Below are positions 33,279 through 40,838 of a DNA stretch of 64,000 nucleotides, piece by piece. The notes under the pieces were generated by a model that saw only the letters and a program-made list of their open reading frames with translations, did no database searches and was not told the DNA's origin. How positions within the stretch are numbered: position 1 is the first letter of the stretch; every line of letters begins with the position of its first letter. The translations under genes and the position numbers were made by a program. This DNA comes from Streptosporangium album (GTDB lineage: Bacteria > Actinomycetota > Actinomycetes > Streptosporangiales > Streptosporangiaceae). The stretch lies in NCBI RefSeq assembly GCF_014203795.1, contig NZ_JACHJU010000006.1, forward strand, positions 186,001-250,000, read 5' to 3'.

Positions 33279-34748
33279 ATGGCATCCCTGGTCGGTGAAG
33301 AACCGCTGTCCTTGACGCAGGAGCTCGACCTCATCGCGTTCGGTCAGCGCCTGAGACACCTGCGCAAGCAGCGCGGGCTCACCCTCTCCGACCTGGGCGA
33401 ACGGGTCAGCCGCGCGCCGAGTCAGCTCTCCCTGCTGGAGAACGGCAAGCGCGAGCCGAAGCTGTCCCTGCTGAAGTCCCTCGCCGCCGCGCTCAACGTG
33501 CCGGTCGAGGAGCTGCTCCGCCGCCAGGCGCCCAGCCGCCGGGCGCAGCTGGAGATGGCGCTGGAGGAGGCGCAGCGCGACCCGCTGTACGCCGGACTCG
33601 GCCTGGCCAGGCTGAAGGTCTCCGCGCGCGTCCCCAACGACGTGCTCGAACACATCCTCGGCCTCTACGGCGAGCTGCGCTCACGCCAGGCGAAGGGCAC
33701 CGCCACCCCCGAGGAGGCGCGTGTCGCCAACGCCGAGCTCCGCCGCATGCAGCGTGAGCGGGGCAACTACTTCGAGGAGATCGAGAAGGCGGCGGCCGAG
33801 GCGCTCTCCGCGGTCGGCTACCGCGCGGGCGCGTTGTCGCAGAGCACCGTCCAAGCCCTGGTCACCCATTTCGGCTACACCGTTCAGACGGTCCAGGACC
33901 TGCCCCGCACGGTCCGCTCCATCACCGACCTGCGCAACCGGCGGATCTACGTCAAGCACGAGCAGCTCGGCATGCACACCCCCCGCACAATCCTGCTGCA
34001 GACCCTCGGCCACCTCGCCCTGGGCCATCACAAGCCCCGCGACTTCGCCGACTTCCTCCGCCAGCGGACCGAGGCCAACTACTTCGCCGCCGCCGTGCTG
34101 GTGCCCGAGGCCACCGCCGTGCCGTACCTGAGAGAGGCCAAACAGGACCGGGCGCTGAGTGTTGAGGACCTGCGGGACGTGTTCGCCGTCTCCTACGAGA
34201 TGGCCGCGCACCGGTTCACCAACCTGGCCACCCACTTCCTCGACCTGAGCTGCCACTTCGTCCGCAACAACGCCGGCGGGATCATCTACAAGGCCTACGA
34301 GAACGACGGCATCGTCTTCCCCGCGGACGAGCAGGGCGCCATCGAGGGCCAGCGGATGTGCCTGCAGTGGTCGGGGAGGCAGGTCTTCCACTCCCCGGAC
34401 AGGTTCTCCGTCTTCTACCAGTATTCGGACTCGCCGACCGGCACCTACTTCTGCGTCGCCCACGTCGACCCCTCGCGGGAGCGGGACTTCGCCATCACCC
34501 TCGGCGTGCCGTACCGCGAGTCACGCTGGTTCCGTGGCAGGGAGACCACCCACCGCACCAAGTCGGAGTGCCCCACCGGTGACTGCTGCCGCCGCCCGCC
34601 CGCCGAGCTCACCCAGCGCTGGGAGGGCTACGCCTGGCCGTCGGCGCGCGGTAACTCCCACGTCCTCGCCGCGCTGCCCCCGGGATCCTTCCCCGGTGTG
34701 GACGAGGCGGACGTCTACACCTTCCTGGAGCGTCACGCCGCCGAGTGA
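33279..34748 (+). CDS. ramB: RamB/ScfR-type XRE regulator of acetate/short-chain fatty acyl metabolism
   Basis: This 489-residue regulator has an N-terminal XRE helix-turn-helix (FGQRLRHLRKQRGLTLSDLGERVSRAPSQLSLLENGKR), a middle peptidase-like IrrE/ImmA fold with a degenerate HxxxH-type motif (TLGHLALGHHKPRDF, DFLRQRTEANYFAAAVLVP), and a C-terminal DUF2083/ScfR domain with Cys-rich CPTGDCCRRPP. The same architecture is found in corynebacterial and mycobacterial RamB. Its position, divergent from aceA, supports direct control of the glyoxylate bypass. Whether acyl-CoA is the ligand here is inference. Confidence 0.9.
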   Translation: MASLVGEEPLSLTQELDLIAFGQRLRHLRKQRGLTLSDLGERVSRAPSQLSLLENGKREPKLSLLKSLAAALNVPVEELLRRQAPSRRAQLEMALEEAQRDPLYAGLGLARLKVSARVPNDVLEHILGLYGELRSRQAKGTATPEEARVANAELRRMQRERGNYFEEIEKAAAEALSAVGYRAGALSQSTVQALVTHFGYTVQTVQDLPRTVRSITDLRNRRIYVKHEQLGMHTPRTILLQTLGHLALGHHKPRDFADFLRQRTEANYFAAAVLVPEATAVPYLREAKQDRALSVEDLRDVFAVSYEMAAHRFTNLATHFLDLSCHFVRNNAGGIIYKAYENDGIVFPADEQGAIEGQRMCLQWSGRQVFHSPDRFSVFYQYSDSPTGTYFCVAHVDPSRERDFAITLGVPYRESRWFRGRETTHRTKSECPTGDCCRRPPAELTQRWEGYAWPSARGNSHVLAALPPGSFPGVDEADVYTFLERHAAE

Positions 34749-36424
34749 CCCCGCGACAGGATGAGCGACGGGTGGCCGAAGAACTGGTAGGCAGCCCCGG
34801 TGGCGGGGACCTGGCAGCGCAGGGAGCGCAATACCTCGGCGACGGGCTCCCCGCCCAGGCAGCGGCGGTAGAACTCCGGCGCCAGGCCGTCGGCGACCGG
34901 CCACAGCGGGGCGACGACCCCGCTCGCGCCCGCGAGCAGGAACGCCTGGCAGTCTCCCGGCTCCTCCAGGAAGACGAACGGCCCGCCGGCCATGCCCCGG
35001 CCCAGAGCCTCGGGCGCCGAGCTGCCGGACGCGAAATGGATCACGTCCGGCGGATCGCCGAGCATGGCCAGCACGTCGCCGAGCACGGGGGTGACCCGGG
35101 TGGCGCCGTAGGCGGTGATCAGCGGGTGGGCCTCCGCCCCGCCGTATACGACCGCCATGCTGTCGCCCCGTGCGCGCGTCGGCGGGGGCAGCTCCGGACG
35201 CCGTCCGCCGAGGGGCCAGCGGCCGGTCGCCGTCTGGCAGTTCAGCAGAGCGGGAACAGCCGGGTTGAGCGGCTGTTCCAACGTCGCCAGTTCCCAGGGG
35301 ATGTGCGGTTCCTGGGAGAGGATCAGCACGCTCGGGCGGCGCGGAGCCACGCGCCCGGCCACCGCGTGCAACAGCTCCCAGAACCCCCGGGGCATCTTCG
35401 CGGCGATCTGCCGGCCCATGTCCTCGACGCTCTGCGCCTGCTCCGCCACGTGCCGTCCGAACTCGGAGGTCCGCATTCCCAGGTCGCAGGTCTCGGCCTG
35501 GTCGGGCGTGGTGAAGTGCGGCGACTGGTAGGTCCACCACAGCCGTCCCGGCTGGTCGCCGTGGACGATGACCGCCGTGACGTCCGCCGGCCCGCCGGCG
35601 TCGGCGACCCGGACCCGGGTTCCGGCGACCGGCTGCGCGACGACCTCCCGGCCGAGCATGCCGGGGGAGTCGAGCACCGCGAGCGCGCGGACGCCGAATC
35701 CGGTCACCTGACCGCGGACGGCATGGACGGCCTGGATCTGCCGGGCGGTCACCGGCTGGTCCTGCGGGAGGGCGACCAGCCGGACCGTCGCCTTCGGGTA
35801 CGGCGAGGCTCCGTCGACGCGGAGCCGTACCCGCCACCCGCCGGGAGCCTCGAACCCCTCGGCGATGAGCTGGATGTCCAGATCGGCCGGCTCATGGGGG
35901 AAGGGAACCTGCCGCTCCCCGGAGCCGGGAGGTCCGCCGCTCTCCGGGGAAGGCGCGGGGCAGAGCCCCACCTCGACCTCGGCGCTCCAGCCCGTGACCA
36001 CTTCGCCGGGGGCCTCGATCAGTGGGAACGCCTCCCACTCCGGTCCGCCCGGATCCGGCTGCCCGCGCCTTCTCCGGAAGGCGCCGGTCAGCCGGTTGAG
36101 CAACGAGGGGCCGCGGTCCGGCTCGGGGGGCAAGGGCGCCTGCCCGGGGGGCAAGGGCGCCTGCCCGGGGGGAGCCGGGGCCGGCTGGTCCTCGGCCGCC
36201 GCCTGGCCGTTCAGGTGGCGCACCTGGGTGAACCGCTCCCAGGCGGGACCGTACTGGGCGATGAGCATCACCACGGCGTCGGCCAGCGGTCCCGGGTCCT
36301 GCTCGCCCTCCTCGGCCAGCAGCGGGTCGAGGCGCTCCCGTAGCTCCCCCGAGGCTCCGCCCAGCAGATGGTCCAGCTCGTCACGGACGGTATGGGCCGC
36401 CCTCATCACCACCACCGGGTCCAT
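34733..36424 (-). CDS. divergent CHAT (caspase-like)-domain protein
   Basis: This 563-residue protein has an N-terminal helical module of about 65 residues, a Pro/Gln-rich linker (80-105), a beta-rich middle and a C-terminal region resembling CHAT caspase-like peptidases: VLILSQEPHIPWELA (366-380), VIHFASG with candidate catalytic His463, and AGASGVVAPLWPVAD (498-512), ending with the family-typical YQFFGHPSLIL. The usual LSAC/NAC strand with the catalytic Cys reads FVFLEEPGDC (Cys492), and the His-to-Cys spacing is shorter than normal, so it may be inactive or shifted. CHAT proteins act in bacterial conflict and cell-death systems; the N-terminal module could be a recruiting domain. No partner gene with a matching module is adjacent. 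It converges with ramB with a 16-bp overlap. Confidence 0.65.
   Translation of the reverse strand: MDPVVVMRAAHTVRDELDHLLGGASGELRERLDPLLAEEGEQDPGPLADAVVMLIAQYGPAWERFTQVRHLNGQAAAEDQPAPAPPGQAPLPPGQAPLPPEPDRGPSLLNRLTGAFRRRRGQPDPGGPEWEAFPLIEAPGEVVTGWSAEVEVGLCPAPSPESGGPPGSGERQVPFPHEPADLDIQLIAEGFEAPGGWRVRLRVDGASPYPKATVRLVALPQDQPVTARQIQAVHAVRGQVTGFGVRALAVLDSPGMLGREVVAQPVAGTRVRVADAGGPADVTAVIVHGDQPGRLWWTYQSPHFTTPDQAETCDLGMRTSEFGRHVAEQAQSVEDMGRQIAAKMPRGFWELLHAVAGRVAPRRPSVLILSQEPHIPWELATLEQPLNPAVPALLNCQTATGRWPLGGRRPELPPPTRARGDSMAVVYGGAEAHPLITAYGATRVTPVLGDVLAMLGDPPDVIHFASGSSAPEALGRGMAGGPFVFLEEPGDCQAFLLAGASGVVAPLWPVADGLAPEFYRRCLGGEPVAEVLRSLRCQVPATGAAYQFFGHPSLILSRGHSAA
36125..36172. repeat. two tandem 21-bp units plus a partial third
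   Basis: Units at 36125-36145 and 36146-36166 (GGGGGGCAAGGGCGCCTGCCC) are identical, and a partial copy follows. They lie inside the CHAT-like gene and encode the repeated PPGQAPL linker, so copy number probably varies in frame. Confidence 0.85.
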
Positions 36425-37594: not shown

Positions 37595-37827
37595 CCGTAC
37601 AGATGGCCAGGCCCAGCCGCCATCCGTCGATCTCCAGAACCTCTGGCTTCTCGCCAGGAGTGAAGCGGCGGACTTCCTCACCGTGAAGGTGCATCTTCCG
37701 ATATGCCACCGTCGTGCTCTCGCCCGTGATGGCGGGCGTCGCGATGTATTCACGCCCATCGTCTTCCCGTACCGGAGCGCCCACCAGCGCGATCGCGCCG
37801 GCGCCATCACATCGATCCGCCCCCCCG
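37595..37827 (-). pseudogene. carbon-nitrogen hydrolase (nitrilase) fragment
   Basis: A minus-strand frame encodes about 75 residues of a nitrilase-superfamily protein: IALVGAPVREDDGREYIATP, VAYRKMHLHGEEVRRFTPGEKP (with the catalytic Lys of the YRKMHL motif) and GWRLGLAIC. It breaks off exactly where the catalytic Cys region (normally AICYDxRFPE) continues, reading AICTVTRRR instead. Both ends are missing. It is a deletion remnant lying downstream of the RING-protein gene on the same strand. Confidence 0.7.
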
Positions 37828-37881: not shown

Positions 37882-40470
37882 CTACGCCGTGCCGGACGGG
37901 GGCGTGGGAGAGAGCTGTCCCACCAGGTCGGTGGCGCCGAGCATATGGACCCGGGCCGGATCCAGGTCGCGGGGGTGCAGCGCATACACCTGCGCTCCGT
38001 CGGCGAGTTCGAGGTCGCCTTCGACGGCCCCGGCGAAGCCCGCTCCGCCGAGCGTCTCCCGGCTGTCATCGGGCACGGTGAGAGCCGTGAGGCGACCGGC
38101 GAAGTCGCCCATCCCCTCGGCCGGGCCGCGCAGGTAGCGGCTGGTCGTGCCGTCGCGGTGCCGTACGACCACCACGGGCGCCCGGGCGGCGGCGTGCCAG
38201 CAGGAGACCTCCCACAGGGTGACGCGGTCACCGAGCCCGAACGCGTCCTCCAGGGCGGCGCCCAGCCGGGCGAGCTGCTCGTGGTTGCCGTCCATGTTGT
38301 GGAAGGCCCCGGCGGCGGACAGGTTGAGGTCGGCCCAGCGCATCGTGCGCGACCACAGATCCGCCACGAGTGGGAGGAGGATCTTGGCCGGTCCGGCCAG
38401 ATCGAACCGCTGCCGTACGGCGAGCGGGTCGAACAGTCCGTCGGGCGCGTCCATGAACCCGGCGAAGCCACGGACGAGCTGGTCGAAGGGCACATCATTG
38501 AAGCTGAAGACGACCGGGACCGCGTAGCGGCCACCGAGCGCGCGCAGCGCGCGGACGTCCAGGTCGACGAACTCCGACGCGCCCAGCGGCTCGGGCGCGG
38601 AGGTCAGGTCACCCGAATGGACGGCGGCGGTGCCGCCCAGCCGCAGACTGGTGTAGTCACACAGGCCGGTGAACCGCCACCGTTCGTCGAAGAGCGCCAC
38701 CGACAGGTCCAGATCGACCCGCTGCTCCGCGGGCTCCGCCCAGTGCAGGAACAGCCGGATCCGTTCTCCCGCGGGGATCGGCTGGACGCTGCCGCGCGGC
38801 AGCCGCACCAGAGCCGAGGAGGCCGACCGCTCCGCGGTCGGCGCCAGGAGATCGGCCAGCGCCTCGTCGAGCACCGCCACCTCCACCGCGGGCAGGGCCG
38901 CGGCCCGGCGGAGCATCTCGGCGGTGAGGGCGGACGACACCGAGGCGACCGCGTCCGCGGGGATCGGCCGGCGGGTGTCGGGCTCGGCCCAGATCCGGGC
39001 CGAGCCGCCGCGGGGCAGGAACATGCGGGTGCCGCCGGGGGGCGTGCGGAGCTGGCCGAGCGCGGCGATCAGCACGCCGGGGGAGGCCTTCGGCGCGGCA
39101 CCGGCCACGGCCTCTGCGAGATGTCCGGCCGGGGTGTTCCGGGCCAGCTGAACGACCCGCCTGACCAGCTCGCCGGGGCGCCGGGTGAGCAGTTCCAGCG
39201 CCCGCGCGTGGTCGCCGTCGCGCAGAGCGGTCTCCACCGAGGCGGCGAAGGTGATGGGACGCAGCCGTACGCCGTCGAACCGCAGCACGCCGGGGTGCTC
39301 GGCCGCGCGCTCCAGCAGCGCCCGGGCGAAGGGTGTGCCGGTGTCCAGCCGGGTGCCGCGCAGCGCGGCGAAGGCCAGCGCCGCGTCCGGGTGGCGCCGG
39401 TACTGCTCGAACGGGTGCAGCACCTCGGCCATGTGCTTCCACGCCTCGGAGTGGCGGTGCAGGTCCTCGACCAGGTACGGCACGGCCATGCGGTCGAGCC
39501 GGGCCAGCAGCGCACGCCGTACCGGTCGCGACAGGGACGACCGGCGTGCCGGGCGCTCACGCAGGCCCGCGTCGCCGTCCATCAGCGCGTACAGCAGGCG
39601 CAGCACGTCGACGGCGCTGTCGGCGTGCCGGTCCAGCAGGTCCTCCGGCGCGCCGTGGCGGAGAGCCGCGGCGAGGACGGTGGCCCGGGTCTCGCGGACC
39701 GGGATGCGGTCGGGCAGCCAGCCGGCCGAGCGCGGCCAGAAGCCCTCGACCAGGGTGGCGACCGCCGCGCGGTCCTCCCGGCGCAGCGGCGTCTGCCGGG
39801 CCAGCAGCGTCTGCAGCAGGTCGCGGGCGCTTTCGGCGGGGTCGTCGCAGAGCCAGAGCAGGGTGGTGCGCTCCGGCCGCCACTCCCGGCCGGCCCCCGA
39901 TGCGGGGGCGTCGGAGGGGCGCAGGAACGGGTCGTCCGGATCGACGCGGCGGTGGCAGATCGGGCAGGCGCTGAAGTCCGCGCCGTCCCAGCAGGCGTCG
40001 CAGACCAGGTGCGCGCAGGGCGCCACCGGGTGGACGGTGCCGGTCTTCCCGCACAGCACGCACGGCTGCTCCGGCTGCTGCACCAGCAGCGTGAACACGC
40101 GCCGCACGTAGAACTCGAAGGTGTCGGCGGGAATGCTCGCCGGGAAGTTCCGGAACAGCGGCACGTGGTCCACATAGCCGCCGAGCTCGGCCAGGACCGC
40201 CTGGAGCAGGTGACGGCCGGCGTTGGCCAGCTCGGTGCCGGTCAGCTCGCCCAGGCGGCGGCGGAGCGGGGCGGACAGCAGGTAGCCGAGCACCAGGAGG
40301 TCGGCCTCCAGAGCCACCAGGCCATCGGAGACCTCCGGCGCGGTGGTGACCTTCCGTCTCCTCCACCCGCGCGGCTCCGGTCCGGCCGGCTCCGGTGCCG
40401 GCACCGTGGCCAGCAGCGATGGGGCGACGAGGCGGCGGTGCCGCAGCAACATCTCGGCCAGCCCGTCCAT
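37882..40470 (-). CDS. RING-finger protein with TerD-like domain (MXAN_6230/SCO0854 type)
   Basis: This 862-residue protein carries a C3HC4 RING-like finger: Cys137, 140, 152, His154, Cys157, 160, 169 and 172 (CVLC ... CAHLVCDAC ... CPIC). Before it is a helical ~130-residue region; after it a long Ala/Leu/Arg-rich helical region (about 200-560). At about 570-675 there is a domain resembling TerD/stress-response proteins (RLFLHWAE, RVDLDLSVALFDE, AVHSGD, SEFVDLDVRALRAL), and the C-terminus (680-862) is conserved-looking beta-rich sequence. RING proteins are rare in bacteria. The family occurs in Streptomyces and Myxococcus with unknown function. GAGAGGGGG precedes the ATG. No ubiquitin-like, E1 or E2 gene is in the window; tellurite-resistance operon partners are also absent. 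Confidence 0.82.
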   Translation of the reverse strand: MDGLAEMLLRHRRLVAPSLLATVPAPEPAGPEPRGWRRRKVTTAPEVSDGLVALEADLLVLGYLLSAPLRRRLGELTGTELANAGRHLLQAVLAELGGYVDHVPLFRNFPASIPADTFEFYVRRVFTLLVQQPEQPCVLCGKTGTVHPVAPCAHLVCDACWDGADFSACPICHRRVDPDDPFLRPSDAPASGAGREWRPERTTLLWLCDDPAESARDLLQTLLARQTPLRREDRAAVATLVEGFWPRSAGWLPDRIPVRETRATVLAAALRHGAPEDLLDRHADSAVDVLRLLYALMDGDAGLRERPARRSSLSRPVRRALLARLDRMAVPYLVEDLHRHSEAWKHMAEVLHPFEQYRRHPDAALAFAALRGTRLDTGTPFARALLERAAEHPGVLRFDGVRLRPITFAASVETALRDGDHARALELLTRRPGELVRRVVQLARNTPAGHLAEAVAGAAPKASPGVLIAALGQLRTPPGGTRMFLPRGGSARIWAEPDTRRPIPADAVASVSSALTAEMLRRAAALPAVEVAVLDEALADLLAPTAERSASSALVRLPRGSVQPIPAGERIRLFLHWAEPAEQRVDLDLSVALFDERWRFTGLCDYTSLRLGGTAAVHSGDLTSAPEPLGASEFVDLDVRALRALGGRYAVPVVFSFNDVPFDQLVRGFAGFMDAPDGLFDPLAVRQRFDLAGPAKILLPLVADLWSRTMRWADLNLSAAGAFHNMDGNHEQLARLGAALEDAFGLGDRVTLWEVSCWHAAARAPVVVVRHRDGTTSRYLRGPAEGMGDFAGRLTALTVPDDSRETLGGAGFAGAVEGDLELADGAQVYALHPRDLDPARVHMLGATDLVGQLSPTPPSGTA

Positions 40471-40838
40471 CGTGGTCCCCCTCTCGTGCCGGGAAGCAGG
40501 AAGGGGCGGAGAGCGGACGCGCTAGATCTTTTTGCAGAAGAAGAAGAAGGAAGCACGTCCAGGAGCCGCCCCTTGATCAGCGACTGTAACGGTGGATCGG
40601 GTGACTTGTCGTATGAATTCTTCCAACACGGCCTACCGGCCGGGCAGGGAAGGATTCTCCCGGTGTCCGGTACGGCGGCCCGCCGCGTGATCCGTTCACG
40701 GGCGCCCGGCACGTACGGGGGCTCCGCCCGCGGCAGCCGGTGAGACAGGGGCGCGGAGACCGGCGATTCGGGCTGTCGGTCGGCCGCCGTAGAGTGTGCG
40801 GGGCCGTACGGCCGTCTGTCGCAGAGAGGTCGATATCC
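40471..40838. other. 368-bp intergenic region between divergent genes
   Basis: It holds the promoters of the RING-protein gene and the PIG-L gene. An unusual purine run (GAAGAAGAAGAAGG) is preceded by CTTTTTGC near 40530-40550. No gene with coding-type composition is seen on either strand. Confidence 0.5.

Follow-up and report, generated by a model that had tools for sequence, protein, structure and literature searches.

A family of prokaryotic RING proteins is already catalogued in two places. NCBIfam holds it as NF041916 (MXAN_6230/SCO0854 family RING domain-containing protein), a name that cites the RING and omits the TerD part, and Pfam models the RING itself as PF14447 (Prok-RING_4). In the Pfam text, Prok-RING_4 is reportedly fused to TerD and to Trove-like repeats and may act in RNA processing; if this is right, both the architecture and the guess at RNA have been in print for more than 10 years. 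Prokaryotic RINGs were also, reportedly, the subject of a computational study by Burroughs, Iyer and Aravind in 2011. The literature searched contained no paper naming SCO0854 or MXAN_6230, and the NF041916 family is apparently uncharacterised experimentally. As for TerD, passages in two papers consider that it may bind a signal or nucleotide derivatives, and mention that it occurs as a stand-alone protein in phages of actinobacteria (PMC7159879, PMC7824862), while passages in a third discuss RtcR-like regulators near defence systems (PMC11090510).

Here we analyse a gene for an 862-aa protein in the window, by which we mean the whole 64,000-nucleotide stretch of DNA under study. An earlier note on this DNA had read the gene as a RING joined to TerD and as a strong candidate for undescribed biology. 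The joining of the two domains stood; the object itself proved to be described, since NF041916 names the family and Pfam has a model for its RING. What we add is a confirmed TerD fold, a series of relatives with a full RING, half a RING or none, and the proximity of phage relatives to tRNA genes, along with a mechanism that we infer.

Domain architecture of the 862-aa protein

NF041916 matched residues 4-850 at 1158.7 bits (cut-off 600), with the profile covered from end to end (1-842 of 842), and Prok-RING_4 matched as a whole model over residues 137-182 (75.2 bits, E 3.7e-21, cut-off 27). Judged by these profiles, the protein is a new member of a family already catalogued by NCBIfam and Pfam, and nothing decisive sets it apart from NF041916. 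Its parts are listed in Table 1; the full AlphaFold2 (AF2) model behind several of them was built from 45 sequences and has a mean pLDDT of 80.1 and a pTM of 0.78.

Table 1. The gene for the 862-aa protein and its parts, in window coordinates
Feature	Position	Strand	Evidence
Complete gene (862 aa; RING-TerD protein of the NF041916 family)	37882..40470	minus	ORF (ATG at 40470, stop at 37882); NCBIfam
Candidate ribosome-binding stretch GAGAGGGGG, immediately 5' of the ATG	40477..40485	minus	Read from sequence
N-terminal part, residues 1-130, mostly helical	40081..40470	minus	AF2 model, block pLDDT 46-91
RING finger, residues 134-182	39925..40071	minus	Prok-RING_4; ligand pattern in members; PDB RINGs by sequence, and by fold from a model of low confidence
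Long alpha-helical domain, residues 200-540	38851..39873	minus	AF2 model, block pLDDT mostly >90
TerD-like beta-sandwich, residues ~560-718	38317..38793	minus	AF2 model; hhalign; Foldseek; overlap of NF041916 with PF02342 matches
C-terminal extension (residues 720-862), of low confidence in part	37885..38313	minus	AF2 model and alignment with relatives

A scan for promoters and terminators around the gene found none, and PADLOC gave no defence-family match for the protein. The phage family phrog_33734, of unknown function, matches residues 407-734 (E 2.2e-40), and its member from phage Weasels2 has no RING match. In the alignment, the C-terminal extension is far shorter in RING-less relatives than in the 862-aa protein. 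No solved structure could be assigned to the long helical domain by Foldseek, where five rows fell below E 0.01, each spanning about 170-200 columns, and the next row stood at E 0.39. The Pfam text reportedly ties Prok-RING_4 to Trove-like repeats; the 862-aa protein has no TROVE match. Such repeats in the helical domain were rejected, with neither a profile nor a listed fold match in their favour: Pfam TROVE gave nothing for the 862-aa protein at E ≤ 1 or for nine relatives at E ≤ 10, and none of the 50 Foldseek rows listed of 423 was titled Ro60.

The eight C3HC4 ligands of the RING are C137, C140, C152, H154, C157, C160, C169 and C172. Every one of the 21 high-scoring, full-length members examined has this pattern, a count that includes the window copy and leaves out a split copy in genome G384. 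The earlier note had placed a complete set of ligands between Cys137 and Cys172, which both this conservation and the Prok-RING_4 score confirm. Modelling of the region is of low confidence, with block pLDDT of 38-63 in the full model and of 53-63 over residues 131-180 in a second AlphaFold2 model of residues 1-215 (11 sequences, pLDDT 50.8). With this weak second model, Foldseek ranked the RINGs of XIAP and BIRC7 best, then those of c-CBL and IDOL, at probabilities of up to 0.99 and E values of 0.03-0.04 at best (top 0.031), none below 0.001; a PDB search by sequence returned CBL-B (E 0.00043, the best), CBL and RNF146 as the nearest solved RINGs. A cross-brace RING fold is probable for this predicted zinc finger. 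Leu139, Trp161 and Pro170 are also invariant in 21 of 21 RING forms, own copy included, and these are presumably the positions that contact E2 in CBL-type RINGs. Ligand order and these presumed contact positions are common to the 862-aa protein and the eukaryotic RING E3s CBL-B, XIAP and BIRC7; the bacterial family differs in that its last Cys is followed by His, then Arg, in 20 of 21 members.

The earlier note suggested profile searches for both domains. That for the RING found Prok-RING_4, but TerD (PF02342) was absent from the match list of the protein at E ≤ 1, hence its gathering score was not reached. The TerD-like part that the note had nevertheless seen near the C-terminal third, and that this default Pfam scan missed, was recovered by hhalign and Foldseek. 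Residues 545-740 (22 rows), aligned by hhalign with 20 PF02342 domains, scored a probability of 93.8% (E 1.7e-7, 135 columns), versus 0.7% and 0.4% for controls from the helical part and 0.2% for reversed rows; a wider set with phage rows scored 92.0% and the 13 RING-form rows by themselves 53.8% (E 1.3e-4). Weak NF041916 matches overlapped PF02342 domains in 4/4 genomes searched with both, in the family taken as Streptomycetaceae. By fold, the top four Foldseek rows were 9a6r_B, 2QNG and two 2QZ7 chains, all at probability 1.00, among them SAV2460 (2QNG, E 3.1e-4, TM 0.69 over the target) and the TerD homologue SCO6318 (2QZ7_A, E 5.7e-4, TM 0.70 over the target); the fifth was the radial-spoke entry 7jtk_A (probability 1.00, E 0.0033), TerD is absent from the titles of 9a6r_B and 7jtk_A, and the rows come without aligned ranges. 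A PDB sequence profile search reached the tellurite resistance protein 2KXT at E 0.49 only, ranked after SarA entries.

With the TerD superfamily (SCO6318, SAV2460) the protein shares the sandwich fold and the DLD.S and H(S/T)GD blocks, and it departs from that superfamily in that Pfam TerD fails to reach it and in that its TerD-like part is a piece of a large protein. At the acidic positions D586, D588, D621 and E633, our two alignments (A1 and A2) show conservation of 90% or more, or invariance. The canonical acidic GDDE stretch of TerD reads GASE here in the hhalign alignment, so the metal site of the domain may be altered. On the strength of alignments and model, we regard the TerD-like domain as real but divergent. 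The outcome opposed to the earlier reading, namely a finger lacking the cross-brace fold together with a C-terminal domain lacking TerD similarity, did not occur, as both RING and TerD were found.

Full, half and missing RINGs in the wider family

Across the wider family, the RING is optional. Proteins of about 700-790 aa that lack it align over the same core as the 862-aa protein (nine rows), and the helical-TerD core without RING is present in actinobacteria, on plasmids and in large phages; none of 13 RING-less actinobacterial proteins has a CxxC at the RING place. In a maximum-likelihood tree of 42 rows, for which the tool warned of long branches and uneven composition, the RING forms make up a single clade (100/100) and the phage rows are scattered. 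Among the 15 tree rows labelled RING, 13 were checked by motif, L085 by Pfam and L089 by annotation alone.

Another set of relatives carries a half-RING, consisting of the second zinc site only. These were found in Variovorax (L086), in Deinococcus KNUC1210 (L087), on two Vibrio plasmids (L172, L173) and in six phage proteins (L177, L178, L179, L185, L214, L251), all outside the RING clade; the pattern was not seen in Deinococcus QL22 or Niallia. Ligands 3, 4, 7 and 8 persist in half-RINGs as Cys-x-His (Cys-x-Cys in Vibrio) and Cys-Pro-x-Cys; ligands 1, 2 and 6 are lacking, as is ligand 5 save in L179, which has a Cys at that place. Ligands 3 and 7 are 17 residues apart in the 862-aa protein and in every half-RING read other than that of Deinococcus, where the spacing is 15. 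In the phage half-RINGs, Phe occupies the place of Trp161 of the RING form (6/6), and no CxxC lies in the 45 residues upstream (0/6). Relatives in which site 1 has gone and site 2 remains are what a cross-brace predicts. Two of the six phage half-RINGs, L177 and L179, came up already in a first viral set, being the half-RINGs among its 43 members. A second viral scan, in which a protein was obtained from 79 of 80 loci, comprised 64 distinct proteins, of which six were half-RING by pattern, one had a full RING and 57 had neither. The full-RING protein (L254) is 45% identical to the 862-aa protein and its locus has 68% GC; it is therefore probably actinobacterial.

Surveys with NF041916, which also pick up some plain TerD proteins, gave any match in 107 of 200 genomes of the order (20/200 above cut-off), in 136 of 150 genomes of the family of G107 (33/150 above cut-off) and in 14 of 296 across the phylum (3/296 above cut-off). 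The core was found in 28 plasmid records, or 31 with a phage query, and in 11 phage records, or 13 with a phage query, besides 53 IMG/VR loci.

Gene neighbourhood in bacteria

The earlier note had proposed looking through the genome for TerD and E2-like partners. For TerD the result was empty: PF02342 has no match in the own genome, nor in 6/6 other searched genomes of the order, and the eight neighbouring ORFs scanned against Pfam and NCBIfam include no ter gene and no ubiquitin-like, E1 or E2 family. For E2-like proteins, UQ_con had no match in the own genome, in a search whose controls were silent too.

No neighbour cluster was common to more than five of 33 loci, window included, among the first 60 clusters listed, own shadow ORFs aside. 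The widest cross-genus neighbour among the clusters listed is a GH15/trehalase-like glycosidase at five of the 33 loci (L030, L031, L065, L066, L074), Pfam-checked in four of these five, whose distance and side vary, being upstream or downstream. A conserved operon partner was rejected, as the glycosidase, GNAT, MFS and SDR clusters were checked and none was judged a partner. Among the matches listed in a survey of the genus, only one (G378) of 15 other genomes had the RING gene set between the left and right blocks as it is here; G421 and G372 carry the RING gene at another place, and the copy in G384 looks broken, being split across two frames. Such variation in gene order across the genus fits a mobile accessory gene.

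Individual loci farther afield have neighbours of varied kinds. In Deinococcus KNUC1210, a TerB gene lies about 1.8 kb from the family gene, and MoxR/vWA-type pairs are found in Deinococcus QL22, at a distance of about 1 kb, and in Streptomyces NBC_00239, at about 4.3 kb. The NBC_00239 locus, which is of the RING form, also has a ribonuclease with an RNB domain some 1 kb off on the opposite strand; at the RING-form locus of Kitasatospora, no gene is annotated for RNA repair. Variovorax has rtcR about 1.3 kb upstream on the opposite strand, with three small genes in between, and two Vibrio plasmids have an RNA ligase about 3.2 kb off.

Phage relatives and tRNA genes

The RING-poor phage relatives often lie close to tRNA genes. 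ARAGORN made at least five calls in the fetched stretch for 16 of 35 phage records and 0-2 calls for 19 of 35. For a test of position we used the 19 of 35 records shorter than 150 kb (17 IMG/VR, 2 INPHARED) minus four without tRNA, that is, 15 records, with the 16 longer records left out; four of the tRNA matches used score below Rfam gathering. In these 15 records, we counted 144 tRNAs at up to 6 kb from the gene versus 42.2 expected under random placement (P ~1e-4), and 84 at up to 3 kb versus 24.3 expected (P 0.002). At least three tRNAs within 6 kb were counted in 12 of the 15 records (3.2 expected), two records had none in that range and one had a single tRNA. The nearest tRNA is 22, 25 and 35 nt from the gene in three records, and the Fisher P for the nearest distance is 1e-11 with all 15 records and 2.9e-8 with 12, after thinning of three relatives. 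tRNA arrays may merely be hot spots for accessory phage genes. Outside phages, ARAGORN made one call each at 3 of 23 RING-form loci, with no tRNA array, and just one call at each of two of five RING-less actinobacterial loci; the 64-kb window has no tRNA.

A further scan covered the 199 phage neighbour ORFs that reach 190 aa, from a set of 519 picked at 100 aa or more. Among the families listed (the first 25 of 50 and 25 of 64) are three poly(A)-polymerase/CCA-type heads, one Thg1, one PheRS core and one PNKP phosphatase, and most are not RNA-repair families (helicases, portal, metallophosphatases and others). Phage Weasels2 has RtcB about 3.2 kb from the family gene. This RtcB and the rtcR and RNA ligase neighbours in bacteria are anecdotes that point towards an RNA role.

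Other observations on the phage stretches concern the make-up of their RNA genes. L102, L120 and L133 carry runs of 20, 16 and 35 tRNA genes, respectively, with tRNA-Arg(cct) last, about 20-105 nt before the core gene and on the same strand, and ARAGORN called a tmRNA in L119 (2495-2818) and in L176 (3230-3652).

Possible functions

We tentatively favour a stand-alone member of the TerD superfamily with an accessory role in the stress response; its likeliest target would be RNA or the translation machinery under damage. The TerD sandwich would most likely sense a metal or a small signal, binding of the target would fall to the long helical domain, and the RING would offer a zinc-stabilised docking site for another protein. 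RNA or damaged translation machinery is put forward as the target because the RING-poor phage relatives cluster next to tRNA arrays. Against this reading stand the RING-form loci, which have no such arrays, the phage records with few or no tRNAs near the gene, the majority of listed phage neighbour families, which are not for RNA repair, and the empty TROVE searches. The homology to TerD by hhalign and Foldseek, the TerB gene and MoxR/vWA-type pairs in Deinococcus and Streptomyces, and a patchy distribution that includes plasmids would also suit an orphan branch of the Ter stress/anti-phage system, acting at the membrane or on metal stress without a role in RNA. However, PF02342 is absent from the own genome and from every other genome of the order that was searched, and the eight scanned neighbours include no ter gene, and we consider such a branch doubtful.

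The RING itself admits further readings. It could be a structural zinc clip that merely steadies the N-terminal part and has no partner: site 1 is missing and site 2 kept in several lineages, which would suit a weakly constrained element of the fold, and the entire module is missing in many relatives. We think this unlikely, since the invariance of eight ligands and of Leu139, Trp161 and Pro170 in all 21 RING forms seemingly goes beyond the needs of a clip. The same three residues, presumed E2 contacts, and the nearest solved RINGs (CBL-B, CBL and RNF146 by sequence; XIAP, BIRC7 and c-CBL by the fold of the weak model) would suit a bacterial E3-type ligase, in which an E2-like enzyme is recruited through the RING, with substrates picked by the TerD and helical parts. 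Against it, though weakly given that the controls of both searches were equally silent, UQ_con has no match in the own genome and Prok-E2_B none in 22 gene-bearing genomes; ubiquitin-like, E1 and E2 families are missing from the eight scanned neighbours; and relatives with half a RING or none retain the remainder of the protein. A ligase of this kind appears improbable. SP-RING domains keep the second zinc site only and still act as E3s, so the half-RINGs alone do not argue decisively against a ligase-type function.

The accessory stress-response protein that we favour can be extended, speculatively and at some risk of being wrong, to the family as a whole. The helical-TerD core would then be a guard against tRNA or translation damage in large phages and bacteria, which phages carry together with their tRNA arrays so that tRNAs stay usable under host attack. 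In some lineages a RING or half-RING would be plugged into it and bring in a host factor, and RNA quality control would then include a RING in prokaryotes. If the core does guard tRNA or RNA, this would provide a concrete target for TerD, a widespread domain that is poorly understood, and would explain why the gene stands beside tRNA arrays in some large phages. The presence of full RING, half-RING and no RING within one family is a natural experiment on the role of the RING in cells without a demonstrated ubiquitin system.

Other genes of the window

Between the RING gene and a glucosyl-3-phosphoglycerate synthase gene, the window holds a nitrilase-like gene fragment (37599-37811), a label that is the reading of a translation. 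The fragment is 95% identical to a stretch in G379, and in G378 a gap of 176 bases leaves no room for it. Farther off, a 563-aa protein (34733-36424, minus strand) has a sub-threshold match to CHAT (caspase-like) at E 0.00077 and no match in PADLOC. A further gene (33279-34748, plus strand) encodes a regulator with an HTH and an IrrE-type M78 peptidase, with weak PADLOC matches to RmrA and capH/capP.
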